Source of the DNA: Antedon mediterranea
Lineage: Eukaryota > Echinodermata > Crinoidea > Comatulida > Antedonidae
Length of the DNA: 64,000 bases
Direction: 5' to 3'
NCBI RefSeq assembly: GCF_964355755.1
Contig: NC_092674.1
Span: 29,624,001-29,688,000 of the forward strand
Part shown: positions 72-60,395 of the stretch, piece by piece
Numbering within the stretch: the stretch's first letter is position 1
Layout: each line of letters opens with the position of its first letter
Notes under the pieces: generated by a model
The model's database searches: none
Seen by the model: only the letters and a program-made list of their open reading frames with translations
What the model was told of the DNA's origin: nothing
Position numbers and translations under genes: made by a program

Positions 72-11373
<11,302 letters not shown>

Positions 11374-14900: not shown

Positions 14901-17826
14901 ATGTCCGAGAAGAAGTCAATGCCAGATTACAGTGACCTAGAGTTCAAGGCTGGGTCAGATGTCCACGTCTGGGACGGTGTCATCTACCCCTGGTTCGTAC
15001 ACGCCAAGACCCTGGATGCCATGGCGGATTTTAAAGTTCGCACCGATGATGTTTATGTCGTTTCATTTCCAAAATCAGGTAAATATAAAATATAACCCAT
15101 TGAAGCACCACCGCTGTCAAAGGGAATCGTGATGAGTTAACTTTAGGGTGTGTATTATAACCAGACGTGTCTCGTTTGAAGGGCCTGTGTGTAAGTTAGT
15201 TACCATTACCAACAATTAAACTTAATATTGACTAAAATGTATCCACTTCATTTAGCTATATTCGGCTGACAAGAAGACTGGAGCATGCTCGTGGAAAGAC
15301 TTAACATTAACTCTAGTCCTAGTACTAACGTTAATGCGCATGCTCCTGTTTTTGTGTTACCTGCTCTATTTGAACAATGACAAACTTCAATTTTACTTGT
15401 TTTATGTAAAGATAATTTCATTAAAGTTTTATCGTATCGTATCCTGTCCTCATTCTGACGGTTCAAATATACCTGAAGGATGGTGGATTTCGATCCTTGT
15501 GGAAGCTCATGAAACTTCGGTATTCGAGCTGAGACAACGAGTATTAATAAATTGTGGCACACAGTTCCAACTTTTCTTGATGGTTACCCAAATATTATTT
15601 CAATCCAGGCACAACATGGACACAGGAGATTGTGTCGCTGATCAAAAACAATGGTGAACCAGACAACACGATAAAAAACAAACACGTAGAAGAGCGCGTA
15701 CCACATTTGGAAATGAGCACCGCAGTTCCCGGGACAATCTTGTATCCGCGCATTGCTGCGATGCCAGAAGACAAGCCTAGGCTCATCAAAAGTCATCTGT
15801 CGTACCAGCATATGCCAAAGGATTTCCTTGTCAAGAAACCAAAGGTAAGGTTCAACCATCAGTGTGGACGTCCGATAAGTTTTAAACGTAAATACACTTT
15901 TACTACCTGTACTACGTGCCATCGACCATCTATATAGTAATGTCACAGTGCGCCCCGTATTAGTAATGTCACAAAGTGCGCCCCAAATTAATAATGTCAC
16001 AAAGTGCGCCCCGTATTAAGACTTGTCAATTCTACGTAGTAGGCCTACTCGGCCGGTGTAATAAGTGGGGTTGTTATCAAGGAATAGAACAACTATACCC
16101 GGTGCTGAATTTTTAAAGTTTTTTTATTCGTCCACAGATTGTGTATATTGCTAGAAACTACAAAGATGTTTCTGTGTCTGGCTACAGCTTTCTGCGCATG
16201 TACAAAGCGTTCGATATTGGTTCGTGGAAAGAATTTTGTGAAGGTATTCTGATGAGAGAAATGAGTGAGTAAAATATTATTATAAACATGGAGCTATACA
16301 TTTTATAGACCCATGCTTTAAATTATAGTTCCGGCTATAAAATGTCTATTTTTATAATAAAATAGAAAAAATACGCCTCTTTAACACTAGGAAGTATTAC
16401 TTTAAAAGGAGTTTTTAACAATGTTTGTTTTGCTTAATCGTTGTAAATCTTGGTTCCCACTAGGACGCAACGTAAGGATGTAGACGCAACGACCAATGAC
16501 AAGCGACCGTTCGAATAATCCATCGGTTGTGATTGGTAAAATCCCTTACGTTGCGTTACGTCTCTAGTGAGAACCACGCATTAAAAAATGTTGGAAAATA
16601 AGTGGGATTATTTGTGGTTGTTCTGTCTTCACAGCGCCTTATGGTCCATGGGCAGCACACGTGTTAGGCTGGTGGCAACACAGACACGACGACAATGTTC
16701 TATTTTTAAAATACGAAGATTTGAAGAAGGTATTGTATGATAGGTCTTTGAAAATAATGTGTTCCCAAATTGATAGATTGAACGCAACCAACATATAGAC
16801 AGCATCGTACGACGAGGCCCGACAAGTTGTCGGGAGAAATTAAACATGTTTAAAGTTCTTCTGACGACCTAAAATCTCAAGACTACTCGTCTTGTCGGGA
16901 TTCAACTCAGACAGCACCGACGAGTCAAGACGTTTAGTCGTGCCTCGTCGTGTACGACGCTGTCTGAGTTGGTGAACATGGCAATCTAAACAAATAGTTT
17001 GCAAGAATGCGTGATGATTTGTTCATACAACCAAATCTGTTTTTTTGTTTGTAGGACTTGCGGGGTGGTATTGTTAGGATCGCAGACTTCTTGGGAAAGG
17101 ACCTCTCAGACGATGCCATAACAAAGACGGTTGAACACTGCAGCTTTGAGACCATGAAGAAGAATCCCATGACAAACTTCACAGGGTTGGATGCATTTGA
17201 TCACAAGGTGGCGCCGTTTATGAGGAAAGGTGAGTACTGTATGAATGTTAAATATAATATCTGGTTAATTGTACATAAATCAAATATTTGTAACAGAAAT
17301 CAAGACGAAAAAACAAAATTCTGCTATAAAAACCTGGAAAACTTTTTTTTAGTAGTTATGTAGTTTAACCTAATGTAACAACATGTCTGATGACTCCCTA
17401 GAAGGTGAAAAAAGATGCTGGATAAATTTTGCTATAGCATGAAAATAAAAATATGAAGTTGAATAAAAATACCAGAAACGTAAAATCCATGTTATATTTT
17501 TCCCCGATATTGCGATATTTTCCCCCAATCTTCAATTTAATTTTGTGTTTCTTAATGTCAACCATTACAGAGCGGCTGAGCTTTGACTGTTGCTTTTTAT
17601 CGTTTCACATTGACTGCACAGCAATATACACAAAAAAAAAACAAATGCTTATGATATATACAAAATATCACTGTATATAAAACTTTATTTGATGTTCATT
17701 TTACAACTTGCAGGTGGCACGGGAGACTGGAAGAATTGGTTCACAGTGGCACAGAATGAGACCATGACAAAATTGATCGACGAAAGACTTTATGGTACTG
17801 GCCTGGTGTTCGACTACGATCCATAG
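14901..17826 (+). CDS. Cytosolic sulfotransferase (SULT family)
   Basis: Six in-frame exons (14901-15078, 15609-15844, 16138-16264, 16635-16729, 17055-17229, 17714-17826) encode 307 residues, the usual length for a soluble SULT. These enzymes move sulfonate from PAPS to hydroxyl or amino groups of small molecules such as steroids, phenols and amines. Seen: the 5'-phosphosulfate-binding loop SFPKSGTTW (about 54-62, split by intron 1); the catalytic-His region LIKSHLSYQHMP; the 3'-phosphate-binding region YIARNYKDVSVSGY; FLKYEDLKK; and near the C-terminus RKGGTGDWKNWFT, the PAPS-binding and dimer-proximal signature. No signal peptide or TM segment, so cytosolic. The start is the first ATG after the acceptor at 14882. 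Substrate cannot be predicted from sequence. It is intact with consensus splice sites and does not depend on its neighbours. Confidence 0.95.
16449..16578. mobile_element. TIR element family E, complete copy
   Basis: It starts CTTGGTTCCCACTAG and ends with the approximate complement, CTAGTGAGAACCACG. Inner ACGCAACG words are mirrored. Size about 130 bp, in sulfotransferase intron 3. Partial relatives lie at 13285-13390 and probably near 12330 and 13145. Confidence 0.7.
16788..16972. mobile_element. TIR element family B, copy 1
   Basis: The ends are imperfect inverted repeats containing ACAGCATCGTACGACGAGGC and its counterpart. The core holds GTCGGGAGAA and TTAAACATGTTTAA. A degraded relative lies at 27300-27470. 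It sits in sulfotransferase intron 4. Confidence 0.65.
17236..17500. repeat. Fragment of repeat family D
   Basis: Shares a long, collinear, slightly diverged stretch with the 600 bp insertion at 39992-40591 (TTAAATATAATAT, then GGTTAATTGTACATAAAT, then CATGAAAATAAAAAT). It begins only about 6 bp after the donor of sulfotransferase exon 5. Confidence 0.75.
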
Positions 17827-21461: not shown

Positions 21462-24400
21462 TCATTTTGATTTCTTAGATGTCGGCCCATTACCTGCAGG
21501 AGGATCATCATCATCATCAATAATTTCTACAATGGTTGGACCGCTGGACGTTGACGACGACGCAAGATTCCTCATCCTACTGAACATGTTAGAAACGCTT
21601 GTCCCGAATTGTTGCTGTTGTTGCTTGCGTTGCGTCTCCGCAATAGCGGCTTGCATCGCAAGCAGGTTTTGTTGAACCGCGTACCTTTGTTGATTCAGAT
21701 CGTGAACACTCTACAATTAAAACAGATTTTGTTGAAAATAAATAGTTCCATTTGGGCAACATTAAAGCTCTGTCTACACTATCAAACTTTATGTGACAAA
21801 AAAATGTGAGGTGCCCATATATGGACATGATGATGTCATATCACTACTGTATTTGGGCATATTACTACCATATTTGGGTACATAATTAGTGCAATTACCA
21901 GAATTATTAACATACATTCAGCTATAAAATGTTCTCAGGAATGAAGTATAAAATAAGCAATACTAAATTGTAAAGCACTCGTACTTACAGGCATTGTATA
22001 CACACTCTGTTGAGCAGTGCGAGCATACTGTAACACAAACAACAACAACAAATGTTACAATAGATGCACTCATTATTTAAACATAATAACATTGTATAAA
22101 ACTGACTCCAAACTACAAGTGGGAAAACAGGATTCAACGTTTCGATCTAATTTGAACTATGGTATGTTAAAAACTGAATATTAAAAGGCTTTATTTGTCC
22201 ATTATCATCATAAAATAACAATAGAAATTCTTTTTAAATGTTACAATGGTGGTTTAAAAAATAAATATCAATACTTGCATGTAGATTTTACATTGGCAAT
22301 GTACAGTATGTAGAGGTAGAGTAACCAAATACATTACATATAAACAACTTACCTGTTGCTGCAATATAGGGTTCAACATCCTCTGGCCTGTTAATAGAGT
22401 ATTGTGACCCTGTTGATACAAGTGCTGAAAAAAATATTTTAAAATAAAAACTATGAAAATATTTAATTTAAGCTAGGGAATTGTATAAAATATTGAAAAT
22501 CTACCTCTTAATACAATTGCAAACCTATAAAAAATATCCTACCCCATATTGATGCATTACCTACAAAACTTAAGCTAGGAAAACCTATCAAATATCTAAA
22601 AAAGCCTACCCAATATTGTTGCATTACTTACAAAACTTAGGAAAGCCTATAAAATACGGAAAACCTATAAAATATTGAAAAAATCCTACCCCATATTGCT
22701 GCATAAACTGCGCATTTGCAGCCGCTACCCCAGGTTGCATATTATGCATTTGGAGCTGTACACGCCCTTCTTTCTCAGCTTCATAATCTTTCCACGCTTC
22801 CTTTCTTTCTTCTTCAGTCAATTCTTCCGCAATTTTGTTCTCCAAGAGGGAGTCATGTTCATGATACTTGACGATCCAATCAGCTTGGTTCTTTAGGAGT
22901 TCAGCAAGAATAAAATCCTGAAAGAGGGTTTTAAATTCTCAGAATATTTTTTTTATTCATATAAAAACTTATTTCATATTGTGTGACCTAGCCAAGCATG
23001 ATTGCAGTAGTTATTGGGGTAGTTTTTTTTCCAAATCTAAAGCTATGTCTACACTATCACACTAAGGTGTCCAAATATGGTAATGATATGCCATCATCAT
23101 GTCCATATATGGGCACATCACATTTTTTTGTCACATAAAGTTTGATAGTGCTTTACATATACAACAGATTTAAACATTCAATGAATATTTGAACATACTT
23201 TTGGCAGAGTTGGAGTGGGTCTTTCAGGCCGGTTGGGATCATCTAAACGATCTGGAGTAAAATTATACAGTTCAGAAAGATCGTTTGATGTGAAATGTCT
23301 TTCGATTTGATGTTCATCTACGACACGTTGGGATAAAGATTGCTTTGTAACCTATCAAAGAAAAATATATGAATATGGTTAAGTTTTAGGTTATTAGCTT
23401 ATCCAATTCTCTCCATTAAAACCGTTTCAGATAGACTATTCTGTACTTTAAAAAATGCTTTGCGTAACAAATTCTTACCTAAAATTTTTTCAAATACTAA
23501 AGTACAATTAGACATTTTTAACTTTAAAAAAAATCAATACACCTACCTGACGTTCATAAATTTTCTCTTCCATAGTACCCTAATATAAAGAATTAAAAAT
23601 ATGCATTTTAATAAATATATTAAATCAATATAAACGTTTTTTAATTGAATAAAAAATATGCATATTTTGTTGATTAATCTAATCAGCTAAGCCCCGACAT
23701 TGAGAGACTTCCAGAACCTACCTGTGCCACCAAACGGTATATATAGACAGCTTTCGTTTGGCCGAATCTATAAACTCTAAATATGGACTGTATATCATGA
23801 CTAGGGTTCCATGATGCATCAAATAAAATTACTCGATTTGCTGCCACCAGATTTGTGCCCAGCGACCCGGCTCTTGTTGAGATTAAAAATAGACGAGATC
23901 TAAAGAGAAGAAAATATATCATCACATCCACACTTCTTTGCTGTACTAATTTTTAATATCTTAAGCTCTGTCTACATTATCAAGTATAAGTGACAACAAA
24001 AATAAGATGTGCCCATATATGGACATGATGATGTCAAATCACTATCATATTTAGGCACATCAGACCTTTTTTGTCAAACTAGTTTGACAGTGTGGACAGA
24101 GCTTTATGAATGTCAATACATTAAATATCAACATGTTTACCTTAGGTCATCTGGGTCATTGAATATGTCAGCCCATCGCGCCCGCATTTGTGGGGCAGTG
24201 GATCCATCCATACGAAAGTAGTCTACTCCTTTGACCCATGACCCAGTTCCAGCAATCTAAAATGTAAAAAAAAAAGATGTATGGTATTGAGTTTTAGTTT
24301 TTTTGAAAAGGATTTAGTATTTTGAGAGGTTATTACTAATGAATGAATACACCAAGTTATTTGTGTATGGCTAACACCATTTTGAATGGCAGGCTCTGAC

Positions 24401-27400
24401 AAATTGAATAAGAAATGTGGAATTACATTTCAAACATTTATATTTTAAAACATATTATTATTATATTTTAAAATACTGTAAAGCCCTGTCTACACTATCA
24501 AAGTTAATGTGACAAAAAAAGTGTGATGTGCCCAAATATGGTAGTGATATGACATCATCCCATCCATATATGGGCACATCACATGTTCTTTGCCACAAAA
24601 GGTTTGATAGTGTAGACAGAGCTTAAGAATACAATGTCAATTACTTCTTCAGAATCTTCTTGTGGTTCTGCTTCTTCAATATGTTGAAGAAAGTCCTCAA
24701 TTAAATCCAGCGACAGTAAGCTTTGGCTAAATACCAGACTGAAAAGAAAAATAAATATAATACTTTGTTTGAATTCATGATATCTGATTTATCTGGTTGA
24801 TAGTTGGTCTATATTTCAGCTCGACCAGACAAAAAATAGTCTCAGACCATGCTCTTTAAGTTTATAGTGCTCAATTACTGTATGTGTTTGTATTCAGCAT
24901 GGATTGCATAATCATGGAGGGAGATGGGAGGAGGAAAGGGGGAGGGGAGGGAGGAAGGAAGAGAGGAGGAAGAGAGGGAGGGAGATTAGGAAGAGAGGAT
25001 GGGAGAGAGAAAAAGGGGAGAAGGGAGAAAGGGAGGAAAGGAAGAAGGAAGAGAGGAAGGAAAGGAAGAAGGAAGAGAGAGAGAGAGAGAGGAGAGAGGA
25101 AGGAAGGGAGAAAGTGGAGATGGGATGGAGAGAAGAGAAGGAAGGAGTAGGAGGAGGGAGTGGAGAGAAGAAGGAGGAGAGAAAGGAGAGAAGGAAGGGA
25201 GAGGAGGGAGGAAGAAAAGACCTTTAAATTGTCATTGGTTGCTTACACTTTATCCCCGACCATTTCAGCGAGTTTTAAAATCTCCATTAACAACAGTAAT
25301 TTTCCACTCATGTCCAGGTTGTTTTTACAATCTTCTGGTACTAATGTACTGTACCACTCATCATCCCCTGGAAGGCCTTGGTCCAATTCAACAAGTTCTG
25401 GCTCTGAAAATAAAATTGTAGAATTATTACTGGTTCTGTGTCTAGTAACCAACATTGTTTTTAATGTCATGTTTTTTCTGGCAATAAATGAGTAAATAAA
25501 AAAAAATGAATTGTAACAAAAGAAAAAATTGTCATCAAGTGCTTTTTGTAGTACAAACAAATATTAGCCAGGTGAATGTAGGATTTTCCAAATGAATCCT
25601 GCTACATTTTTAAATTTTTTATTTTATTCAATCGAAACCAACAGCGATAATTACCGCCACAGGTTTGATTGGTCCTAACATTGATCAAGGGCTTCTCTTG
25701 TCCAGTGCCCACCTTCACCAGAGGAAAGGCAGATACTAGATGCAGGGGCTGCCATAAGAGTCCACAATGCTGATTTAGAATGCCTAACGGGACCCCAGCT
25801 CCATATACAGCACCCGATATTCCCAGATGGTCTCCCATCCAAGCATTAACCAGGCCCAACGTTGCTAAACTTCAGTGATCTGACGAGAACAGGTGTAAAC
25901 GTGGTAAAGCCGTACCTTCATCGGCCGCTGCAGCACCGCTTCTTGTGTTTCTTGTCCGACTTCTCGTCTTCCAAGTGTTCACCACCTCTACACTACTGTC
26001 AGATTTGGCACCATCTGATTTCCCCCCCTTTTGTTTTCGTTTAGCTTTAGCTATCAATTCATCTCTAAAAATAGAAAAAGTAAATGTTTTTCATTAAGAA
26101 ATTCTTATACTATAAGTATTCTTGTCGGATAAATCTATTCCATTTGAGTGGTGTTAATAACTTCAAGCTCTGTCTACACTATCAAACTTTATGTAACAAA
26201 AAAATGTGATTTGCCCATATGGAGATGATTTTGTCATATCACTACCATATTTGGTGATAGCACTACCATATTTGGGTACCTACTCGCTATCACTGCGTCC
26301 ACTATTTCTCCATTCTTGTTCCTTTGATTTATTATCATCAATAAATTCAACCAAACTGTCGTCACTAGCCAATTCTTCACCAGATGTTATAAAGTCGGAC
26401 ATTTCATCATCATATCGGGCCTGCAAAATAAGAACTTTACATATTATTTTTAGGATACCATACCAAATATGCTCAAACGTATATAACAATATATTCAAAC
26501 AATATTATATACAGTAATGTATAAAATAATCTATCAATTAACTTCAAACATTCTAAATTGTTTACAATTATCATTACCTTTTTAATGTCACGGATCGTTG
26601 AAAGTCTAAGAACCCACGGATGAGTCCAAATTCTCATCAGTGCCTGATAGTCCGCGAACAGTCCCATACGTTGGTTCTCACCGTTTTGTGTTCGTGCATA
26701 AGAATCAAGATACTTCTCATACAACTCCACCTGTACTTTAGACAGCCTCACAGAAACAACGTACTCATGTTTTGGGGGCAAGTAATTAGCAAGAGCCGAG
26801 TAATCCCTTCGCTGAAATTATAAATTAACAAAAATGATAGTTATAGTTGGTTTATGAGAATGCACAAGCGGTTTGTTACGCTTCAAGGCATTTAAAATCG
26901 TCACCTACCTGCACGCATCCTGAAAGCATTTCGTGCAATACGTGAGCACGTCTTTTCATGACACGCACATCATGCCGACTTGCATCGGAGCTCTGTCCGT
27001 TAGTAATTGGATTCACAAACCGATTGCAAAACTCTTTCTTGGTTCCCAGTAGACTGGGTTTCACAAAGTCTACCATACAATGATCTACAATATAAAATAT
27101 AGATACAAAATAATTAATGTATGCTATTCTCTAGCCTGTATCCAAGCAGGGTTCAAAGTTCAAACTCTTTTTCCCTGGAGGTAACCTTTTCAAACTATAG
27201 GGCAGCAACAGAAGTGATGAAGTGGTATAGGCAAGCCTAGCTCACAGCCTAGCTCACTATATTGCTAACTATCCTTGATTCTATTCTATTTTGAATTTTG
27301 AAGGATGAGACGTCTTGACTTGTTGGTGCTGTCTGAGTTGAATTCCAAAAAGACTAATTGTCTTGAGATAGCATTGGGCGTAGTTTTCAGGTAGTCGGGA

Positions 27401-30400
27401 GAACATTAAACATGTTTAACTTTAAGATGACTCATCTGCCCTCGCTGTGCAACACTGTCTAAAACATAGAAAAAAACAGTCAGACTTACATTCTATTAGA
27501 TTATTTTGAAGTGGCGTTCCTGTCAAACATATTCTCCTTCGAGTCTTAATCTGATTCAATGCTTTAGAGATGGCAGTCTGTTCATTTTTTAACATGTGCC
27601 CTTCGTCACATACGACAATATCTGGCCCTGAAAAACAAAACAAAAAACCCAAAGTTTTTCACTTAACATTGCCAAATCATGTCAGTGTTAACTCATTCTT
27701 GAAACTATATCAATAGAAATATTTAAGTTAAGTAATCGCATTTTGTTGTCTTTTTTTGTACTGTTTGTTCTTTTTTGTTAGGGTTACATGTTTAAAGCAC
27801 TTGTGCTTATGTTGTATCCCATTCCACTTCAATTCTTTTTATGTTTTTATTTTGATTTTGGAATAAAAATGTCGATGATTTATTGATTTGCCATACAATG
27901 GCACAAATATTATTTAACTCAAATTTGAGAGGAAATAGTATAATAATATATAGAATAGTATAATAATATATAGAATAGTATAATAATATATAGAATAGTA
28001 TAATAATATATAGAATAGTATAATAATATATAGAATAGTATAATAACATATAGAATAGAATAGTATAATAATATATAGAATAGTATAATATATAGAATAG
28101 TATAATATATAGAATAGTATAATAATATATAGAATAGTATAATAATATATAGAATAGTATAATAATATATAGAATAGTATCATGTTTATTTCATTATTAT
28201 TTGTAATACTTGAGTATCAAACTGTTCTACCAGAGGGCTCAGAGATGTTAAATTGATGGCAATTACCTGGGTCAGTCAGAGCTTCGGAAAAAGTTTTCTT
28301 TTGTGATTTTTTGCGAATTCGTGCACCTGTGGCCAAATTACGATACATCGAGTATCCAATAATCATAACACCTCCATTTTTATGCCAAAAACGTAACGTA
28401 TCTGCACGGCCGTAATTATCTTTTATTGAAGACATCTCGTACACCTGAGGAAAAAAAGCAACAATACAGCTTATCATTGAATGAGTTTATGGTTCATTGA
28501 ATGAGTTTATGGTTCCTTGAATATCAAAATTGGGTAAAATTCTGTGGCATATTTGTAGTGGCTTAGCCTCTATTCACACACGTCATTTTCTATCAATATT
28601 GTGAGATCACCTGGAGGGTATTATATAAACAGGATATTTTGATGTAAAGCTCTGCCTACACTATCAAACTTTATGTGTGATTTGCCCATATACGACATGA
28701 TGTTGTTATATCACTACCATATTTAGGCATATCACTACCATATTTGGGCACATCACACTTTTTGTCAAACTAGTTTGATAGTGTAGACAAAGCTTAAAAA
28801 GAACTCATAAACAATTTAAATAAGTCACATATTAAGAGTCATACTTACAGGGATTTCACTTTCTTTCCCTAACCATTTGTCAAACTCGTTCACCCAGTTG
28901 AGCACTGTATTTAGTGGAGCTACCACAAGACAGTGCTTAGCTCCAATTTCTTCTGATGACATCACAGTATGAACGTAAGATATCACCTACAAAATAAAAG
29001 TCTTTTTGTTTCTTGCCATGATGGAAAAAATTCTTGGATCCGACAGGATTTTAACCTAGGTACTTCGGGATCAGTAGCATCAAAACCACCAAGCTACAAC
29101 CAAATTCTCACTATTCAGAAATGTATGTGATGATGGCCAAAAGCTTGTGAATTCTCCCATACAAGGCCCTCTATGATTTACACTACTAAGCTGTCTACAC
29201 TATCAAACTTTATGTGATGTGATGTGTCAATTATCAGACATGATGATGTCATATTACTACTATACATGGGCACATCACACTTTTTTGTCAAACTAGTTTG
29301 ATAGTGTAGACAGAGCTTTAAAGATTGTAGTTTATTTTACCTGTAGCGTCTTTCCTAGGCCCATACAGTGGGCAAGAATGCATCCTCCGCCATCATCTCC
29401 AATTTTATCCATATTTTCATACGTTGAATCCCACAGAAATTGTATACCCTTGACTTGATGTGGTTTCAGATTCTTGGATATAGCTTTGTCCACTTCAAGT
29501 ACTACTTTATCGTTTTTTTTCTTGTCATATTCAAGAACGCATGCGGTGACCTTGGAGCTCTCCTTTGGCTTGTCTTCATTCTCATCAATGACCTTAAACA
29601 AACATTGGACAATGAAACATAATCTAGGTAAAAAGGTACTCTGAGCAAGAAACTCTTTCTTTAGGAAGTATCTAAATGTAGGCCTCTCTTTTTCAAACAC
29701 TCCCATGCCAAGTTTCAACAAAAGATACTTATCTGATACTACTTTACCATTTTTTTCTATTTTCAAAAATTCTCTTGCATCTCTGCATTCCAACTGAGAC
29801 CCTACAGTTATTTTATTCTATTATACCTCTTTTCTTTTTTCTGCAACTGTTTTATGTCTCTCAAGTTCCACCTGAGACACTAAAGTTATCTTATTTTATT
29901 ATACCTCTTTCCTTTTTTCTGCAACTCTTTTACGTCTCTCAAGTTCTAACTGAGCTGCTGCTTTAGTTTCCTGCTTCAACTTGCTATCTTTCATTACTTT
30001 CCTTATGTTCCGACGTTTGCTCTTACTCGGTGTATCGGGATCTTCGACCTATCAAAACAGTGAATACAGTAGACATTTGGTCATTCTCATAATAATCCCA
30101 AATTTATTGTTTGAATGACATAATTTAATTCTAAATATTTTGGTTTCTGTATATTCGCTATTAGCTATACAATATCTTAATGTTAATGTAAAATTTATAT
30201 AGTGCTTTTACCAATCAACTGATTGTCCCCAAGAGCTTAACATTACATTTTCGTTTCTATGGCACCTTTACAATGATCATCAAAGCACTTTACAAGAGCC
30301 AATCATCTGGTGAACATTACTTTTTTGGAGGATTGAGTGCTTCTAAGAGTTTTTTAAAATGTGTTACTGATGGTGAATTGTGAAGGTTTTTTTATATTCT

Positions 30401-33400
30401 AGGACAAATTTTGAAAATGAATGCTAACCAGATCGGTGAAAGTACCATTACCTTTAGAAAGTTATTTGAAGGACATAAAGAATTGCAAACCTTTTTCTCT
30501 TTCTCATCGTCTTCATCAGAGTCTTTGGATGAATCTGATGCCAATTTGATTCTTCTTCGCCTTTTCTTCCTCTTTCTACCAGTCTCTTCTTTCCCAGAAG
30601 TCTGAGAGCTTTCACCATCCTTTTTTTTTCTACGCCTTTTCTTCTTTTGTTTCATTTTCTCGTCAGAGCTTTCCATTTCTTCAGAAGTGCTGCCTTCAGA
30701 GTTTTTTCTTTTAGATTTCTTTCCTTTGGATTTTTTCTTTCCAACTGAATCATCAGAACTAGTTTGAGAATTATTTGAATTCAGTTTCTTTCGTTTTCCT
30801 CTTTTTCCTTTTGTATCAGAATCAGATGATGAATCAGTTGAGCTGGAATTATCCTGTTTTCTCTTTCTTTTCAGCATTTGTGCTCTTCTGTTCGCTCGCT
30901 TTTCACGTTTACTCTGATTATCTTCATCACTACTGTCACTACTTTCTCTTAGAATTACTTTCATAAGTCGATGTGCTTTTCTTTTTTTCTTTTTTTTAGT
31001 ATCATCAGAATCGGTTTCTTCCTCAGAGGATTCTTCAGTCTCTTCCTCGGAAGATTCTTCCTTTTCTTCATCATCTTCATCCTCATCTTTCTCCGATTTT
31101 TCAGATTTATTTTTCTTCTTCTTATTATTACCATCTGAGTCAGATTCATCTTTTTTTTCAGAAGCATTTCTATCTTCCTTTTCTTTTTTGTTTGCATCTT
31201 TTTTAGATTTCTCTTTCGTTTTTTTTTTCTTATCCTTTTGTTGATCCTCATCTCCAGAGCATTCATCTGATGCGTTAACACCCTCTGCTGCTTCTTCAGC
31301 TTTGAGTTCTGCAAGCACTAACTTTTCAGCAAATTCATCAACATCCACATCACTTTCTTTGGAGATGTCTGACCCTAAATAGCCATTATCTGTAGGTTCT
31401 AAATCTATCATTTCTTGATCTGATCCACCCTTTTCTTTGGCTTCCAGAGCATGTTTTCTTCTTTGTTCTGTGTCGTCACTCAGATCAGAAGAGCTTACCT
31501 CTAGATCAGAAATAGAATTCTTGGTCTTCTTTGAATTGGATTTTTTCTTTTTCACTTTATCTTTTTTTTCTGGTGTTTTTTCTACATCAGATTCGTCAAG
31601 TTTGGGCTTCTTCTTTTTATTCCTTTTGGCAAGATTTGCTATCAATTTCTCTATCGAAGAATCTGATTGAGAATCTTCTTTCCTATCCTCCTTATCTTTC
31701 CTTTTCTCCACTTTGTCTGAACATTCTTTTTTTCTTACATCCTTTTTCTTAATCTTTTTACTTTTATTCTTGCAGTTTCCATCCCCTTTCTTTTTGCACG
31801 TTTCATCAATATCTAACAAAGAATCATCAGAATCATCTTCCTCTTCACTTGATGTTTCATTTGTGCTATTTTGATCTTCTGTTTTGACGTGTTCTCTTTT
31901 GGATTTTATATTTTTCACTTTATCTTTTTTTTCTGGTGTTTTTTCTACATCAGATTCGTCAGTTTCGGGCTTCTTTTTATTCTTTTTGGCAAGATTTGTT
32001 ATCAATTTCTCTACCGAAGAATCTGATTGAGAATCTTCTTTCCTATCCTCTTTATCTATTCTTTTCTCCACTTTGTCTGAACATTCTTTTTTTCTTACAT
32101 CCTTTTTCTTAATCTTTTTACTTTTATTCTTGCAGTTTCCATCCCCTTTCTTTTTGCGCTTTTCATCAATATCTAACAAAGAATTATCAGAATCATCTTC
32201 CTCTTCACTTGATGTTTCATTTTTGCTATTTTGATCTTCTGTTTTGACGTGTTCTCTTTCCTTTTCTAGTTTCTCTTTATCATCATCAGAATCTGAAGAA
32301 CTTTTGTCTGTTTCTGTTTTGATGTGTTCTTTTTCCTTTTCTATTTTCTCATTTTCATCATCAGAATCTGAAGAACCTTTGTCTGTTTCTGTTTTGATGT
32401 GTTCTTTTTCCTTTTCTATTTTCTCTTTATCATCATCAGAATCTGAAGAACCTTTGTCTGTTTCTGTTTTGATGTGTTCTTTTTCCTTCTCTAATTTCTC
32501 CTTTTCATCATCAGAATCTGAAGAATTTTGTTCTGCTTCTGTTTTGATGTGTTTTATCGCCTTCTTTATTTTCACTTTTTCATCATCAGAATCTGAAGAC
32601 ATTTTTTCTTCTTCACTTGACAAAACTTCTTCTCCATCTTTCTTAATTTGATCTTTTTCATTTTTTTCTTTATCCTCTTTCTTTGACTCAATTTCTTCTT
32701 CATCATCATCACTCGATTGCAGCAAATTATCATCCTCCTTGTCTCTATCTCCTTCATCTTCATTTCCAACTGACTCTGCTTTCTGCGTAACATCTTTTGG
32801 TTTATCTGTTTTTGCTTGTTTCAACGTTTCTGCCTCTTCTGAACTTTCATTTGATAAATCCTTTTGTTTGTCACCCTTTTTCCTATTTTTTCTCTTACTC
32901 TTGCTTTTTTCCTTGTTAAGCTCAAATTCTAATTCTGAATCAGAGCTACTATCATCTGATTCTCTTGATATTTTCCCATTCATTTCAGATGTTTCTTTCT
33001 GGACACTTTCTTTTGTTTTATCATCACCTTTTGATTTCTGATCAATTTCACAGATATCACTACTTTCATCGCTTTTATTACACAGTGCCTTTCTGCTATC
33101 ACGATTTAAAGTAGTTTTTAGTTTCCTTGGGGACTTGGAAAATCTTTTTGAATGATTTAGACTGCCATTTTGCAATGATTTTTTCTTCCTTTTCCTTTCT
33201 TTCTTGTAATCGCCATCAGACCATTCCGGTTCATCACTGTCATCAGATGATAAACTAACAAGAAAGTTCAAAACTTGTTTTTGTAAGGATTTAGCAACAT
33301 CCATAACAACATTCAAATTTCTAACAAATGTTTTTAAAGTTTTTGTTTCCATTCCCACAAATTCACTTGCTGGTGGTTTAAACTTTTTGCCTTTGAAAGG

Positions 33401-36400
33401 TTTTAGTTCATTTGATAAGTAGTCTGCATGTTTCTTTATATTTAACAATATTCTTGACATATCACTGCCAACCTCAGGATTTTTAGATGGTGTCTTTTTA
33501 TGTAAAATGCTAGAACACAACTGTTGCAAGTCAGCCAATTGAAATGGTTCACAGCCGTAGCATTTCCACTTGTAATCATCATCTGCATTTAGAATTCCAG
33601 ATAATTCTTCTCGTCCGAGGTTACGTAGTATACAAGACCGACAAAAAACTTTACAACAAAAGTCGCAACAGATAAGTTTGCCGCCCTCACCACACCAATG
33701 ACACTGCTCATCTATATCGTCTTCATCCTTAGTAAAAGATCCACTTGTATAAAAATTATAACATTTCTATTTGAAAGAAAAATTAAAATGGTTGAAAATT
33801 AATACAGATTAAAATCAATATGGTTTAAAAAACATTGTAAAGTACATTTGTACTAATTTTACTCTGGGGCTGATCCAGGATTTTGAACGGGGAGGACCAA
33901 CATATAGTATTAATAATCATAACTAGATATCAAAAGTTGTTAGTTTTTATCATCAAAAGTGGGAATTGCAATCTTGGATTTTATGAAATGCCTTTATATG
34001 GATATGATGATATCATATCCTTACCATATTTGGGCACATCACACATTTTTGTCACATAAAGTTTGATAGTGTAGACAGAGCTTTAGAAAAAGATCACGAA
34101 CTTGTAATCGTGTAACTTACTCGACAAATGAGAACTTTGAGAGAAGGATGCTCGTGAAGTTTCCACTTAATATCTGGATTTAATTGCGTATTGCAACTCG
34201 TACATCGTACAACATCCGAATCAGCTGAAATACAAACACACTGCTCTTTAAAAAACAATTTAAAATGTTCTTTCTCAATTAAAAACCACAGAGTAACATT
34301 CCACAGAAAATAATAGGCAATTTAAAAAAGAATTATTTTTGTCCCTTTTTTTGGAAACACCAATCGTGATATTCATTGTATACAGCAACATTGACAACAA
34401 ACACCTATACAACAAGGTAGACAATTGGTTAGCTCACCATATATGCTAGACTCCAATCCAGCAGCTTACAGAAATAAAGCAAAAACATTAATTACAATTA
34501 TGTTTGCAGATCACTAATTGACATGCAAGACATTTTTGCAGTGGCAGCACTTAAGGCTAGCAAACGTTACTCACTTCCTTTATTTCTTTTCTTTCTGAAC
34601 TCCGGCCCTTTGAATTCATTCTCACTCGCACTTTCTGGTTGGACAACAATAGTACCTTAAAAAGAAGCAATCAAAATATGATCTTACTATTTATATCGTT
34701 AACTGATAAGTATTTCTCATCACGGGACATCCACAGAGGAGGAGATCATTACAATCACCTTATGTTTAAAACCCAGCCGCCATTGTGATACATTGTGAAG
34801 ACATGATGTCATATCACTACCATATTTGGGTATACTGTATCACTACCATATTTGGTCACATCACACTTTTTTTGTCAAACTAGTTTGATAGTGTAGACAG
34901 AGCTTAAGACATATTGTACAATGAGGCAATTCTTACCATCTTCCAGAGTAGAGACACCTTCACTGTTTGTTTGAATTAACAACCCTTCTTTCTTCTTCTT
35001 TTTACTCTTCTTATCTTTCTGTTTCTCAGAATCACTACTTTTTTCAGAATCATTACTTTTTTCAGAATCACTACTTTTTTCAGAATCACTTTCTTCTTCC
35101 TCTTTCTCACAATTGTCGTTTGCTTTACCATTCTTCTTTTGTAAGTTTGTCTGTTCTTTTTCCTCTTTTATCTTATTAGATTCTTCAAGATTATGTTCAT
35201 CTTTCATATCATCATTACTGATATCCATACTATCACATTCATTTTTGTCATTATTATTCACTTTTCCTTTAGTTTGCTTTTCATCAACTTGCTCCACATT
35301 AGTTTCATCCTTTTCTTTTTTATTCAATGGTTTATCTTCCTTTTCATCACATTTGTGAGTGACATGTCTGGTCACAATTGGTTTCCTAATAAGGAAATAG
35401 GACGAGTAACATATTTTAAGAAAAAAGACAATAAATCGTTTGATAACATTTCTAAATTAGCTCCAAGTCATATTGACATCTGGTTTTGATTCAGCACTTA
35501 TGAGCATAGTTACGGGCTTGAGCAGAATGTATGATAGATTGCATAGCTCTGTATAGTCTAGTCACCACTAATATAATATCTGTAGCAACTCCAGGCAAGC
35601 TCAGTATTAAAATCGGATCACTTTAGGTCAATTATGTGGAAAATTTATGGAAAATCAAGTTAAGTAACTCAAAAAGAATGCATACCTTCTTGATCTTCTT
35701 CTGCCTTGATTGCTTTCTTCCTAAAAAAAGAGGAAAATGAAAATGATTAACTTAGTTGAATCCGAATACAGTAATAGTTACAATAAAAATAAAAATAGTC
35801 AAAGACATTTTTAGAGACATTTATTGTCAAGAGTAAGGTTTTGATAAAATGAGATATTACTGTATATCCTACTGTAAACTATTTATCCACTATACTAATA
35901 AATAAATTGACACCTTAATATTATTATCACACACATATGTATGCATTCATATTGTAAGTCTGAAACTGAAGAGAAAGAAAATTGTAGTATGTATACTACA
36001 ATTTACATCAATTTGCATAATATGTACATATTTATTATTACTATTTTAAGTGAAAAGATACAATCCTTTGTTTACCTCTTTTTTCTCTTGTGGATCTTCA
36101 TTATCCTCTTCTAGGCAATCTTTTTTTCCTTCAATGACTTCCATCATTTCATCCTTTGCCACTTCATTTTCTTTCATTTCATCGTGTGATTCTTCTGTGA
36201 CTTTATCTTTTTTTTTGTTGCTTTCTAAAACATCCTACAATAGAAAAAATCAAACATTTAAATTCAATCCTCTTTTATCTTATTAGATCTTCTAGATTAC
36301 TTTCATTTTTCATATCTTCATTACTGATATCCATACTATCACATTCATCTTTCATATCTTCATTACTGATATCCATACTATCACATTCATCTTTCATATC

Positions 36401-39400
36401 ATCATTACTGATATCCATACTATCACATTCATCTTTCATATCTTCATTACTGATATCCATACTATCACATTCATCTTTCATATCTTCATTACTGATATCC
36501 ATACTATCACATTCATCTTTCATATCTTTATTACTGATATCCATACTATCACATTCATCTTTCATATCATCATTACTGATATCCATACTATCACATTCAT
36601 CTTTCATATCATCATTACTGATATCCATACTATCACATTCATCTTTCATATCTTCATTACTGATATCCATACTATCACATTCATCTTTCATATCTTTATT
36701 ACTGATATCCATACTATCACATTCATCTTTCATATCTTCATTACTGATATCCATACTATCATCATTACTGATATCCATACTATCACATTCATCTTTCATA
36801 TCTTCATTACTGATATCCATACTATCATCATTACTGATATCCATACTATCACATTCATCTTTCATATCTTCATTACTGATATCCATACTATCACATTCAT
36901 CTTTCATATCTTCATTACTGATATCCATACTATCACATTCATCTTTCATATCCTCATTACTGATATCCATACTATCACATTCATCTTTCATATCTTCATT
37001 ACTGATATCCATACTATCACATTCATCTTTCATATCTTCATTACTGATATCCATACTATCACATTCATCTTTCATATCCTCATTACTGATATCCATACTA
37101 TCACATTCATCTTTCATATCATCATTACTGATATCCATACTATCACATTCATCTTTCATATCATCATTACTGATATCCATACTATCACATTCATCTTTCA
37201 TATCTTCATTACTGATATCCATACTATCACATTCATCTTTCATATCCTCATTACTGATATCCATACTATCACATTCATCTTTCATATCTTCATTACTGAT
37301 ATCCATACTATCACATTCATCTTTCATATCATCATTACTGATATTCATACTATCACATTCATCTTTCATATCTTCATTACTGATATCCATACTATCACAT
37401 TCATCTTTCATATCTTCATTACTGATATCCATACTATCACATTCATCTTTCATATCATCATTACTGATATCCATACTATCACATTCATCTTTCATATCTT
37501 CATTACTGATATCCATACTATCATCATTACTGATATCCATACTATCACATTCATCTTTCATATCTTCATTACTGATATTCATACTATCATCATTACTGAT
37601 ATCCATACTATCACATTCATCTTTCATATCTTCATTACTGATATCCATACTATCACATTCATCTTTCATATCTTCATTACTGATATCCATACTATCACAT
37701 TTATCTTTCATATCTTCATTACTGATATCCATACTATCATCATTACTGATATCCATACTATCACATTCATCTTTCATATCTTCATTACTGATATTCATAC
37801 TATCATCATTACTGATATCCATACTATCACATTCATCTTTCATATCTTCATTACTGATATCCATACTATCACATTCATCTTTCATATCTTCATTACTGAT
37901 ATCCATAGTATCATCATTACTGATATCCATACTATCACATTCATCTTTCATATCATCATTACTGATATCCATACTATCACATTCATCTTTCATATCATCA
38001 TTACTGATATCCATACTATCACATTCATCTTTCATATCATCATTACTGATATCCATACTATCACATTCATCTTTCATATCATCATTACTGATATCCATAC
38101 TATCACATTCATCTTTCATATCATCATTACTGATATCCATACTATCATCATTACTGATATCCATACTATCACATTCATCTTTCATATCTTCATTACTGAT
38201 ATTCATACTATCATCATTACTGATATCCATACTATCACATTCATCTTTCATATCTTCATTACTGATAGTGATATCCATACTATCACATTCATCTTCCATA
38301 TCTTCATTACTGATATCCATACTATCACATTTATCTTTCATATCTTCATTACTGATATCCATACTATCATCATTACTGATATCCATACTATCACATTCAT
38401 CTTTCATATCTTCATTACTGATATCCATACTATCACATTCATCTTTCATATCTTCATTACTGATATCCATAGTATCATCATTACTGATATCCATACTATC
38501 ACATTCATCTTTCATATCATCATTACTGATATCCATACTATCACATTCATCTTTCATATCATCATTACTGATATCCATACTATCACATTCATCTTTCATA
38601 TCATCATTACTGATATCCATACTATCACATTCATCTTTCATATCATCATTACTGATATCCATACTATCATCATTACTGATATCCATACTATCACATTCAT
38701 CTTTCATATCATCATTACTGATATTCATACTATCACATTCATCTTTCATATCATCATTACTGATATCCATACTATCACATTCATCTTTCATATCATCATT
38801 ACTGATATCCATACTATCACATTCATCTTTCATATCTTCATTACTGATATCCATACTATCATCATTACTGATATCCATACTATCACATTCATCTTTCATA
38901 TCATCATTACTGATATTCATACTATCACATTCATCTTTCATATCATCATTACTGATATCCATACTATCACATTCATCTTTCATATCTTCATTACTGATAT
39001 CCATACTATCACATTCATCTTTCATATCTTCATTACTGATATCCATACTATCACATTCATCTTTCATATCTTCCTTACTGATATCCATACTATCACATTC
39101 ATCTTTCATATCTTCATTACTGATATCCATACTATCACATTCATCTTTCATATCATCATTACTGATATCCATACTATCACATTCATCTTTCATATCATCA
39201 TTACTGATATCCATACTATCACATTCATCTTTCATATCATCATTACTGATATCCATACTATCACATTCATCTTTCATATCTTCATTACTGATATCCATAC
39301 TATCACATTCATCTTTCATATCATCATTACTGATATCCATACTATCACATTCATCTTTCATATCTTCATTACTGATATCCATACTATCACATTCATCTTT

Positions 39401-42396
39401 CATATCATCATTACTGATATCCATACTATCACATTCATCTTTCATATCATCATTACTGATATCCATACTATCACATTCATCTTTCATATCATCATTACTG
39501 ATATCCATACTATCATCATTACTGATATCCATACTATCACATTCATCTTTCATATCATCATTACTGATATCCATACTATCATCATTACTGATATCCATGA
39601 CATTTTTGTTTATTGTTATTTACTTTTCCTTTAGTTTGCTTTTCATCAACTTGCTCCACATTAGTTACATGCTTTTCTTTTTTATTCAATGGTTCATCTT
39701 CCTCTTCATCACATTTGTGAGTGACATGTCTGGTCACATTTGGTTTCCTAATAAGGAAATAGGATGAGTAACATATTTTAAGAAAAAAGACAATAAATCG
39801 TTTGATAACATTTCTAAATTAGCTCCAGGTCATATTGATATCTGGTGTTGACTCGGCACTTATGAGCATGCTCAGAAAGTTATGGGCTTAAGCAGAATGT
39901 ATGATTGCTTAGCTCTGTATAGTCTAGTCACTACTAATATAATATCTGTAGCAACTCCAGCAAGCTCAATATCCAAATTAGATTACTTTAAACCTCAGGT
40001 ACAGGCATGAAGTTTAAATATAATATTTGGTTAATTGTACATAAATTAAATATTTGTAACAGAAATCGAGACGAAAAAAAATGAATTTCCCTTAATATGG
40101 TCAAATACAAAATTTGGTAAAATTCTTCCATAAAAACCAGGAAGACTTTTTTCAGTAGTTAGGTAGTTATAGCTAGGTAGCTAATGTAATAACATGTCGG
40201 GTGACTCCCTAGACGGTGAAAAAAGAAAGGTGGATATACGGTGGATAATTTTTGCTATAGCATGAAAATAAAAATCTGAAGTTGAATAAAAATATCAGAA
40301 ATGTAATATTCAAGTTATATTACCTATATTTAGTCATCTGATAACATTTTTTACCACACCATTTATTTTTCATAGGTTTTTAAAATGCCTCGCTATTTAC
40401 AAAATTTGTGTACAAAAGAATAGAGATTTTACTGTGTAATTTGAACTATCCCCCCACTGATAAGAAAGTGCTTATTTCCAACAAGCTCGTGTAACACAAA
40501 TAAAATCCCAAAAATTATGAAACATAGGGGAAACTATAGATCGATAATTATTGGAATGTATGATCAATAGAAATTTTTTGCCCGCACCTGGACTTTAAGT
40601 CAATTATGGGGAAAATTTATGGAAAATCAAGTTAAGGAACTCAAAAAGAATGCATACCTTCTTGATCTTCTTCTACTTTGATTGCTTTCTTCCTAAAAAA
40701 AGAGGAGAATGAAAATTATTAAATTAGTTGAATCCGAATACAGTAATAGTTACAATAAAAATAATCAATGACATTTGTTGATAAATAATTAAACTTAAGA
40801 GACATTTATTGTCAAGACCAAGGTAGCATTATTTTCATAAAATAGATATTATATTACTATCAGCTATTCATCCACTATACTAATAAATAAATAATTAGTA
40901 CTTGGAAATGTACATCTTAATAATATTACGACACACAAACGTATTTATATTGTGATTGAATAAAAAGTCTGAAACTGAACAGAAAGACAATTATAGTATG
41001 TATATACTACAAATAATGAATACATTACTTTGCATAATAATTAATATGTACATATTTATTATTACTAAAGTGAAAAGATCCAATCCTTTGTTTACCTCTT
41101 TTTTCTCTTGTGGATCTTTATTATCCTCTTCTAGGCAATCTTCTTTTCCTTCAATGACTTCCATCATTTCATCCTTTGCCACTCCATTTTCTTTTATTTC
41201 ATCGTTTGATTTTTCTGTGACTTTATATTTTGTTTTTTTGCTTTTTAAAACATCCTACAATAGAAAAAATCAAACATTCAAATTCAATTCAAAATTTATA
41301 AAGCGTCTAATGTTGTGAAATCTTCAACTGTTGTGAAATCTCCAACGATGTACATACAAAAAAACAACCAAATATATATAACCGTTGCTAACCAACTCGG
41401 TCTAGATTTAACTCTGGTCTGCACCAATAGAGAGAAATGGCGAACCGACGTCTAAAATCTGAGTGGGTATAAAATCATAACAAACCGTTGAGGGCGACAC
41501 ATTTCTTATGTTTATACACGTGAATCATGGCGTCGTCTAACCAATGTTGTTGCTGTAACGCTCATAATTCTTATTGTATTTGTGTATTTACACAATAAAA
41601 CAATGAAATATGTATAAAAGTCATCCATCATTCACAATCATCATAATACTCCTAAAATATCTCATATCTGTAGGTCTACATTAGACTAGGCATAGTATTA
41701 TAGTAGAATGGTGTTATCAAGCATTCATTACTGCCACTGGCGGTAGCCCCCCCCCCCCCTCCCCTGCAGGAAGCATCACGACACTAGCCACATAACAAAA
41801 TGGCAGTTGTCCAGCTGAAACTAATGCTAGGCCTACATCTACTACTAGAGATGCTCTACATAGTCTTACTACCTAGCTAGGATAGGCCTAGCAGTACCCT
41901 AGCTAAAGTAGTAGTAGTAGTAGTAGTACAGTATGCAATAACCAATTTCCAATATTATTATTATTATAATAACCGATAATCCGTAGGCTCGAGGTACTAC
42001 AGCATACATACAGGCCAACTATCTAGGGCCTAGAGCTGGGTACAGTATATAACAAAACGCGTCTTAATTCAATCCAAATTAAAATAAAATATGTTAAGAT
42101 TTGCCCATATAACATTAAAATTGTTAAGGGTGTTGCAAAAAAAAAGATACTGCTATTATGTGTGTTTTAAACCTTCTTTTCTACCTTCCTTTTTAACTCA
42201 ACCCATCGGAATTTCCCATACAATAACATGTGGCGAAATGGTTTGTTTACAATCTATACCCACTCGGTGAAATTTGAGTGACGTCATCGCGGTTCGCCAT
42301 TTCTCTCTATTGTCTCTCAGCCATCCCAGACTTGGGGACTCCTACCCTAGTGTGAAGGAAAGTAGATTAGAAAAAAAGATTAATACTTACTTCCAT
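21462..42396 (-). CDS. ATRX: ATRX chromatin remodeller (ADD domain plus Snf2 helicase)
   Basis: Exons in transcript order: 42391-42396 (Met-Glu), optional 41096-41254, 36076-36234, 35686-35720, 34937-35385, 34575-34655, 34121-34224, 30491-33766, 29905-30048, 29341-29592, 28849-28986, 28267-28444, 27490-27627, 26909-27084, 26578-26811, 26284-26420, 25916-26064, 25247-25403, 24645-24738, 24141-24256, 23722-23899, 23547-23579, 23199-23351, 22690-22917, 22353-22424, 21989-22027, 21462-21710. Without the optional exon they sum to 6975 nt, exactly 2325 codons (human ATRX is about 2490). Seen: ADD zinc domain (about 244-350, with [16 protein letters not shown] and [11 protein letters not shown]); a charged K/E/S/D region (about 350-1370); and helicase motifs [10 protein letters not shown] (I), APLNTVLNW (Ia), DEGH (II), LTGTPLQNN (III), [18 protein letters not shown] (IV), [18 protein letters not shown] (V), [13 protein letters not shown] (VI). 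ATRX is a nuclear ATPase that reads H3 tails and, with DAXX, supports H3.3 deposition at repeats. The use of duplicated 5' exons is uncertain. Confidence 0.95.
21764..21888. mobile_element. Family A MITE copy 5 (right end truncated)
   Basis: Left terminal repeat and core present; it stops after TTTGGGTACATAATTAG. In the ATRX intron before the last exon. Confidence 0.75.
23039..23153. mobile_element. Family A MITE copy 6
   Basis: Shortened copy with both ends recognisable. It ends about 45 bp downstream of the donor of ATRX exon 23199-23351. Confidence 0.75.
23963..24104. mobile_element. Family A MITE copy 7
   Basis: Full-length, both terminal repeats. It ends 36 bp from the donor of ATRX exon 24141-24256 and fills most of that 241 bp intron. 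Confidence 0.85.
24481..24624. mobile_element. Family A MITE copy 8
   Basis: Full-length, in the opposite core orientation to copy 7. It ends 20 bp from the donor of ATRX exon 24645-24738. Confidence 0.85.
24905..25222 (+). repeat. Long polypurine tract (G/A only on plus strand)
   Basis: About 310 bp are almost wholly A and G (GGAGGAAGG, GAGAGAGA and similar), just inside an ATRX intron. On the ATRX sense strand it is a polypyrimidine (C/T) run ending about 25 bp from the donor of exon 25247-25403. Such tracts can form triplex DNA or R-loops. The open frames here are a by-product of composition. Confidence 0.9.
25610..25914 (-). mobile_element. 5S-rRNA-derived SINE (SINE3-like)
   Basis: On the minus strand, 25914 down to 25804 reads as a degenerate 5S rRNA: TACGGC at the start, GTTCTCGTC, GGGCCTGGTTA, TGCTTGGATGGGAGACC, CTGGGAATA, CGGGTGCTGTA. 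About 190 bp of unrelated tail then runs to an A/T-rich end. A 5S head with a foreign tail is the SINE3 layout. It is too diverged to be a working 5S gene. Its first base lies directly next to the donor of ATRX exon 25916-26064. Confidence 0.75.
26165..26279. mobile_element. Family A MITE copy 9 (truncated)
   Basis: Left terminal repeat and core present. The copy breaks off after TTTGGGTACC, about 5 bp from the donor of ATRX exon 26284-26420, so intron bases next to the splice site come from the element. Confidence 0.75.
27300..27470. repeat. TIR element family B, degraded copy 2
   Basis: Shares GCTGTCTGAGTTGAATTCC, GTCGGGAGAA and TTAAACATGTTTAA, in order, with the element at 16788-16972. 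It lies beside ATRX exon 27490-27627. Confidence 0.6.
27940..28180. repeat. 20 bp tandem array, about 12 copies
   Basis: Head-to-tail copies of ATATATAGAATAGTATAATA with a few shortened units. In an ATRX intron; the open frames across it come from the repeat. Confidence 0.92.
28645..28795. mobile_element. Family A MITE copy 10
   Basis: Both terminal repeats present, with one extra CATATCACTACC unit in the core. It ends 53 bp from the donor of ATRX exon 28849-28986. Confidence 0.85.
29035..29110 (-). repeat. tRNA-like SINE remnant
   Basis: On the minus strand, GTAGCTTGGTGGTT resembles a pol III A box. About 35 bases on, CTAGGTTAAAATCC resembles a B box. Too diverged for a tRNA gene; in an ATRX intron. 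Confidence 0.35.
29187..29318. mobile_element. Family A MITE copy 11
   Basis: Both ends recognisable; the left repeat has lost a few bases. It ends 22 bp from the donor of ATRX exon 29341-29592. Confidence 0.85.
29827..29871 (-). other. Candidate extra ATRX mini-exon born from a tandem duplication
   Basis: A unit of about 77 bp covering the 3' part of exon 29905-30048 and its donor is repeated next to it. The copy has an AG before it (TCTCAG) and the same GTATAAT donor after it. It reads 15 codons in the same phase as the real exon ([14 protein letters not shown]). A third, more diverged copy lies further on, near 29745-29800. It may be spliced in without breaking frame; no evidence of use. 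Confidence 0.45.
30491..33766 (-). other. ATRX giant exon: ADD end plus charged low-complexity region
   Basis: This 3276 bp exon encodes the PHD half of the ADD domain at its start, then over 1000 residues rich in Lys, Glu, Ser and Asp. It contains internal repeats. A block of about 117 residues is present twice (around 31530-31880 and 31885-32240). A unit containing [18 protein letters not shown] occurs about five times (32244-32620). Acidic serine clusters alternate with lysine runs, typical of CK2-type sites and nuclear localisation signals. Antisense open frames here are mirror effects of composition. Confidence 0.85.
33990..34083. mobile_element. Family A MITE copy 12 (left end missing)
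   Basis: Core and right terminal repeat only. It ends 37 bp from the donor of ATRX exon 34121-34224. Confidence 0.75.
34121..34224 (-). other. ATRX exon encoding the GATA-like half of the ADD domain
   Basis: Reads [18 protein letters not shown], then [10 protein letters not shown]. This aligns by eye with the first zinc-binding half of the vertebrate ADD domain, where the CTAC...HPSLQVLICKNC pattern is invariant. It joins in frame to exon 30491-33766. Confidence 0.9.
34796..34905. mobile_element. Family A MITE copy 13 (left end missing)
   Basis: Core and right repeat, ending 31 bp from the donor of ATRX exon 34937-35385. Confidence 0.75.
35162..36268 (-). repeat. ATRX tandem segmental duplication, copy 1
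   Basis: It runs from inside exon 34937-35385 through the 35 bp exon (35686-35720) and the 159 bp exon (36076-36234) to AATTCAAT at 36261-36268. The same order of sequence recurs in 36269-41288. The join at 36268/36269 brings CCTCTTTTATC, found in copy 1 at 35162, directly after AATTCAAT, found at the far end of copy 2 at 41281-41288. This is the signature of a direct tandem duplication. Copy 1 keeps every reading frame open. Confidence 0.85.
36303..39598 (-). repeat. Coding-derived 42 bp tandem array inside the duplicated ATRX exon
   Basis: About 70 units of 42 bp (reading [14 protein letters not shown], with D/E variation) are mixed with about 15 shortened 24 bp units (SMDISNDD). One such unit occurs, single copy, in the intact ATRX exon at about 35195-35240, so the array grew from a piece of real coding sequence. 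All units are multiples of three, so a 1107-codon frame stays open. It is not in phase with the flanking exon at either end. Confidence 0.95.
39992..40591. mobile_element. 600 bp insertion of repeat family D with target duplication
   Basis: Flanked by ACTTTAA at 39985-39991 and at 40592-40598. The matching place in duplication copy 1 (35620-35626) has a single ACTTTAG and no insert, so it is an empty site. The ends are short imperfect inverted repeats (CAGGTACAGGC against CAGGTGCGGGC). A 7-8 bp duplication and CAGG-type ends fit an hAT-like non-autonomous element. A fragment of the same family lies at 17236-17500. Confidence 0.75.
41425..42312. mobile_element. Inverted-repeat element in ATRX intron 1
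   Basis: A perfect 23 bp inverted repeat occupies 41425-41447 and 42290-42312; it contains ATAGAGAGAAATGGCGAACC. Further inward, a second matched block GAGTGGGTAT is also mirrored. The 888 bp between the outer ends holds no ORF, a poly-C run and a TAG triplet run. No clear target duplication was found, so it may be an old non-autonomous DNA transposon. Confidence 0.65.
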
Positions 42397-50306: not shown

Positions 50307-50470
50307 GCTTTTTAATACCTTTTACTTACTGTATTTTACTTGTGACTTGTTTAATGCACTGTATTATTTTGCCTAACAATAATCATTGTTTATAATGAAG
50401 GGATAAATTTTGTGTCATGTTAGAGCATTAAAGTACTTTCATGCACAATTTCATATTCCCTACATTTATA

Positions 50471-51030
50471 ATGTAGTATTTGTTATGTAAGCTGTAGAAG
50501 TTAACATACTACATTAGTATGGATTTTGACCACAGCCCTGGTTTTTGACTTGTGACTTGACTTGAACTTGGTTCAAAATGCCTACAATAATAAAGGGATC
50601 AATGTTGTGCCATGTTAGAGCAATTGTGCTTCCATGCATTATGTGCCTCATCCCTACATTCAAAATGTAGTATTTGTTATGTAAGCTGTAGAAGTTAACA
50701 TACTACATTAGTATGGATTTTGACCACAGCCCTGGTTTTTGACTTGTGACTTGACTTGAACTTGGTTTAAAATGCCTACAATAATAAAGGGATCAATGTT
50801 GTGCCATGTTAGAGCAATTGTGCTTCCATGCATTATGTGCCTCATCCCTACATTCAAAATGTAGTATTTGTTATGTAAGCTGTAGAAGTTAACATACTAC
50901 ATTAGTATGGATTTTGACCACAGCCCTGGTTTTTGACTTGTGACTTGACTTGAACTTGGTTCAAAATGCCTACAATAATAAAGGGATCAATGTTGTGCCA
51001 TGTTAGTCTAGAATTGTACTCTCATGCATA
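50471..51030 (+). repeat. 194 bp tandem repeat in the transposon 3' region
   Basis: ATGTAGTATTTGTTATGTAA recurs at 50471, 50665 and 50859, giving a 194 bp period and nearly three almost identical copies. Each copy carries AATAATAAAGG, so a poly(A) signal is repeated. Confidence 0.92.
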
Positions 51031-59690: not shown

Positions 59691-59919
59691 GTATTTTCTC
59701 TTCTAAATGTCTGTTTCAATTCTGTGATGTCCAATGTTTCATGAGGGATGCTGTTTAATATCATAAATCACAATGAATTTATCCAACTATACAATATATC
59801 ACAAAAGCCCCAGTGGTCTGACAGTAGGGTGTCAGCATATCAATCAGAAGAGTTTAAGTTCTAATCTAGTGGAGTCTTTCAACATGTACCTTCTGAGTTT
59901 ATCTTCTGCAAGCAACGAA

Positions 59920-60055
59920 AGATCTATCTACACTATCAAACTAGTTTGACAAAAAAATGTGATGTGCCCATATATGGACATGATGATGTCATATCACTAC
60001 CATATTTGGGCACGTCACACTTTTTTGTCAAACTAGTTTGATAGTGTAGACAGAG
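59920..60055. mobile_element. Family A MITE copy 15
   Basis: Well-preserved copy with both terminal repeats. It is the only clearly intergenic copy in the window. Confidence 0.85.
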
Positions 60056-60395
60056 CTTTACATTGGTAGACTTGCCACAAGTCTCACAGCGTCCTGATGT
60101 TTTTCTCCCTGAAAATAGAGATTCCAGGATACTTGACATGCCAGTGTGCCAAAACTGTTTTAAACGAACTGTCTACAGACAGTATAAACATGATTTAGGC
60201 TAGATATAGTTTACAAGTCAAAGGTGATAGTTATGCAAAAGTCAGTTTACATAGAAATAAGATATACACATGCAAGAGATTGCCAAGGGTTGGTTTGTTA
60301 TCACATGTGCTAGTATCAAAGTTCATTTTCCAATATAGTTATTTATAATTCTGTATAGTCTTTCTAGCAAAGTTTAAATGGTGACTTGAAAGACT

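Follow-up and report, generated by a model that had tools for sequence, protein, structure and literature searches.

The array at 36296-39601 on the minus strand, which is the direction of the gene, consists of 85 head-to-tail units and is best read as a minisatellite of coding origin, young and specific to this locus, within a duplicate ATRX exon that is decaying. From the sequence comparisons below, we put the probability of this reading at about 0.83. Most likely, the array itself is functionless, and it is an unusually clear example of minisatellite origin that is otherwise ordinary.

Tandem Repeats Finder called the array at 36302-39520 with a period of 42, 76 copies and a score of 3477, by far the top-scoring repeat of the window (the whole stretch of 64,000 nt that was analysed). 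The units were split at the conserved ATG(G/A)ATATC on the minus strand, from 39598 downwards. Of the 85 consecutive units, 69 are 42 bp long (68 regular ones and a divergent one at the terminus), 15 are 24 bp long and one is 48 bp long. These lengths lie within the roughly 10-100 bp of minisatellite units, and the units fell into 13 sequence types. The first-pass annotation had counted about 70 repeats of 42 bp and about 15 short forms of 24 bp and had called the units near-identical; the splitting bears out both statements, since the mean pairwise difference among the regular 42-bp units was 2.1%. The 42-bp unit translates as MDISN(D/E)DMKDECDS and the 24-bp short form as MDISNDDS. The sixth codon separated the two dominant unit types, GAT (26 copies) and GAA (27 copies). 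The GC content of the array was about 28%, and the longest exact repeat inside it was 310 nt. Judging from the array as assembled, length polymorphism between individuals is plausible.

The gene had been named as ATRX, and the domain matches agree. The ADD domain, encoded by exons near 34.1 and 33.7 kb, matched solved ATRX ADD structures (4e-39), and ATRX was the best match of the first SNF2 helicase exon, in an open frame at 29332-29817 on the minus strand. All further exons lie on the same strand. Exon joining placed A1 (36076-36234, 159 nt) and A2 (35686-35720, 35 nt), both with splice sites present, the intact exon A3 (34937-35385, 449 nt) and, after A3, E4 (34575-34655), and the A1-A2-A3-E4 join is one open frame. 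The first ADD-domain exon, E5, was placed by its ADD match at 34121-34224 with boundaries drawn by eye. The large exon E6, placed by its open frame and ADD match at 30470-33766 with an approximate 3' limit, completes the ADD domain and contains a long stretch that is charged and rich in repeats. A search of the assembly with the helicase exon returned a single full match, plus a weak one on another contig (52% over 42 residues, with an in-frame stop); therefore, ATRX is apparently single-copy in the 354 Mb assembly. The charged region of this ATRX gene gains repeats readily. The large exon contains in-frame coding repeats at 31536-32259 (a 360-bp unit, two copies, 95% matches) and 32237-32599 (a 75-bp unit, 4.8 copies), and an 18-bp repeat is also found in exon A3 at 35022-35090.

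The array had been proposed to derive from a coding unit that occurs once in the intact ATRX exon, and sequence comparison located this unit at 35197-35241 on the minus strand, within A3. There, 45 bp (GAATGTGATAGT...AAAGATGAA) were identical to the common array unit of the GAT type, and because of this identity the GAT unit is taken as ancestral. As A3 itself lies within the open ATRX frame, the array is coding-derived. In a search of the 354 Mb assembly with a three-unit probe, matches, whose counts are lower bounds, were confined to this array and exon A3, which argues against the same array at many sites, as a dispersed satellite would show. The viral contigs scanned for the array unit gave no match.

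About 1.1 kb of the gene is present twice in tandem. Block alignment placed the intact copy at 35166-36271 and the second copy from 36272 to about 41288, the latter being longer because it also contains the array and an insertion (about 39991-40591). The duplicated segment spans two small exons, the 5' portion of the next exon and the introns. The blocks align across exons and introns, the junctions are seen at 36269-36271 and about 41288, and either copy starts, in the gene direction, about 35 nt ahead of exon 1. The duplicate exons, all on the minus strand, are B1 (41096-41254, 159 nt, phase 0-0, open, splice sites intact) and B2 (40658-40692, 35 nt, splice sites kept), both placed by exon joining, and B3 (36269-39745), placed by alignment and exon joining, which is the duplicate of A3 that holds the array. 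The insertion of about 600 bp at 39991-40591 occurs in one duplicated block only; its part at 40007-40321 matches 17241-17498 at 73% and is probably a dispersed repeat.

B3 kept its acceptor and lost its donor. With its 3' part missing, it borders directly on the short stub of intron ahead of A1, and only about 35 nt of intron lie between A1 and the B3 relic. A frameshift sits at the array entrance, where a reading from B2 into B3 meets a stop after 54 codons. Given the truncation, the lost donor, the frameshift and the stop, B3 is most likely a pseudo-exon that is removed with intron sequence, and the other copy gives the intact ATRX frame. By any ordinary route, B3 would be unusable as an exon. 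Thus, the host of the array is a duplicate exon, as the first-pass annotation had stated, but not an intact duplicate. B1 and B2 could be used in transcripts. The possible in-frame joins are B1-A1, B1-B2-A3 and B1-A2; B1-B2-A1 is out of frame. Inclusion of B1 before A1 could add 53 residues and would stay in frame. B1 and A1 differ at 10 positions, of which 10 are replacement and none is silent.

The divergence of the copies bears on their constraint and on the age of the array. Exons and intron 2 differed alike between the copies (6-7% each; about 6.5% between blocks), and intron 1 differed by 17.6%, with several gaps and a poor alignment there. Exons 1-3 showed 17 replacement and 2 silent differences. 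Since divergence is as fast in the exons as in intron 2 and shows this mix of changes, at least one copy looks unconstrained; purifying selection is not visible between the copies, although the numbers are small and assigning each change to one copy would take an outgroup. The mean difference of 2.1% among the regular 42-bp units, against about 6.5% between the blocks, is in line with the recent expansion that had been proposed, and homogenisation would look alike. An array older than the duplication, in which exon 3 was already arrayed and A3 contracted to one unit, is distinctly unlikely. Array contraction is common, and the single unit in A3 is compatible with it; however, the units are more alike than the blocks (2.1% on average against 6-7%), a comparison in which homogenisation could hide age, and neither a second nor a partial unit is present in A3. 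That the array was invented or misjudged in assembly is extremely improbable. Long arrays are hard to assemble, but 13 unit types in irregular order between two continuous flanks are unlike a stuttered consensus, even if the exact copy number may be off.

The array frame is open from 36275 to 39619 (1114 codons), and the unit lengths of 42, 24 and 48 bp all preserve this frame. Together with the retained acceptor of B3, these features would suit an array translated as a long acidic repeat domain, from some ATRX isoform or an independent transcript, and a functional coding array would likewise show an open frame and length changes in multiples of three. We nevertheless consider translation very unlikely. 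The array is out of frame with the remainder of the protein. At the entrance, the frameshift disrupts the normal reading and brings an immediate stop; the exit is truncated and without a donor. In addition, the open frame is what chance predicts. A stop arises from only 3 of the 126 possible single-base changes in the unit. For the roughly nine distinct substitutions, which were counted by hand, the absence of any stop has a P of about 0.8 without selection. Finding no more than one silent change among the nine has a chance P of 0.6-0.75, so the replacement/silent mix is also as expected. Because stops are this rare by chance, the open array frame is not evidence of a protein; the openness of a coding-derived array is inherited by descent, and 1114 open codons are expected without selection. 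The same caution holds for a long open frame in any repeat array. The Pfam matches obtained with this frame (DAN, ATG16, dynein light chain) are rejected, since no stretch passed alone, as is typical for a repetitive query. The GTAATG in each unit was considered as a cryptic donor; by eye it looks like a weak one, missing the G that donors usually carry at -1 and +5.

In an established model of their birth, minisatellites arise when short flanking direct repeats (5-10 bp) undergo slippage or unequal exchange (PMC3389668; PMC6162428); it is credited to Haber and Louis (described in PMC3389668). The model fits the present case because two copies of ATGAA, exactly 42 bp apart, flank the single unit in A3; by eye, the match extends to AAAnATGAA. 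Similarly, taking the 18 bp between two copies of TGATA out of the 42-bp unit gives the 24-bp unit. The 5-bp direct repeat can account for the origin of the unit, and the TGATA repeat for that of the short form. We suggest the following course. First, as the sequence shows, the segment of about 1.1 kb with exons 1 and 2 and the beginning of exon 3 was duplicated in tandem. The upstream third exon lacks its 3' part and donor, and with them any normal exon role; transcripts presumably skip it in splicing. The 42-bp stretch between the ATGAA copies would have doubled by slippage or unequal exchange, and the array would have grown, with partial homogenisation of multi-unit blocks through gene conversion or unequal exchange, as the recurrence of such blocks suggests. 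The 24-bp form may have arisen as a side deletion of the 18 bp between the TGATA repeats. All 15 short units are of the GAT type, which is consistent with a single origin and later spread. The unit block BBBBGAAC recurs in the array, and a match of 8 or more units was reached in only 2 of 300 shuffles; block-wise spread, which we infer from few blocks, would produce such a pattern. The array now probably lies within intron sequence just upstream of A1. As in the model of Haber and Louis, the 5-bp repeats are one unit apart and the unexpanded state is kept beside the array. Unlike in their case, we infer the mechanism from the anatomy of one genome, which supports it well, rather than observe it.

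The first-pass annotation had also speculated that ATRX could target the array. Minisatellites and other tandem repeats, as well as the 3' exons of zinc-finger genes, are among the reported sites of ATRX (PMC9203812), which would favor a functional target, with the protein bound to the array and silencing or regulating its own gene. Known ATRX repeat targets, however, are largely G-rich, quadruplex-prone or CpG-island sequence (PMC9203812), whereas the 3296 bp of the array contained 0 CpG, 0 GGG or CCC runs and 0 quadruplex motifs, and the DNA fold of the unit was no better than that of shuffles. The psi-zeta VNTR and other ATRX-bound repeats (PMC9203812) are likewise tandem arrays in a gene region, but they are G-rich and quadruplex-prone, in contrast to the low GC and missing G-runs here. 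These results speak against the proposed link, which we regard as highly improbable. The array ends about 60 nt upstream of the splice acceptor of A1. It is very doubtful that the array, probably variable in length, modulates the use of B1 versus A1, or is bound by ATRX with feedback on the gene.

The human MUC1 and DRD4 VNTRs are coding-derived minisatellites, or protein-coding tandem repeats. The coding repeats of Candida albicans are comparable (PMC6162428). The ATRX array resembles all of these in its multiple-of-three unit, its growth inside an exon and its near-identical units, and differs from them in that its host is a broken duplicate exon, so that the array is probably untranslated. 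A literature search for arrays in pseudo-exons found none. With the single unit, the freeing duplication, the short direct repeats and the expanded array side by side, the locus is a clean natural case of a minisatellite start.

Other repeats were observed in the window. Elements of about 150 bp lie at 1510-1663, 4247-4403, 23952-24107, 24476-24630, 28642-28799, 59914-60070 and 62972-63140; they occur in both orientations, are 72-88% alike and likely represent a small dispersed element. Tandem Repeats Finder also called a 194-bp unit in 3.2 copies at 50392-51029, with 95% matches.
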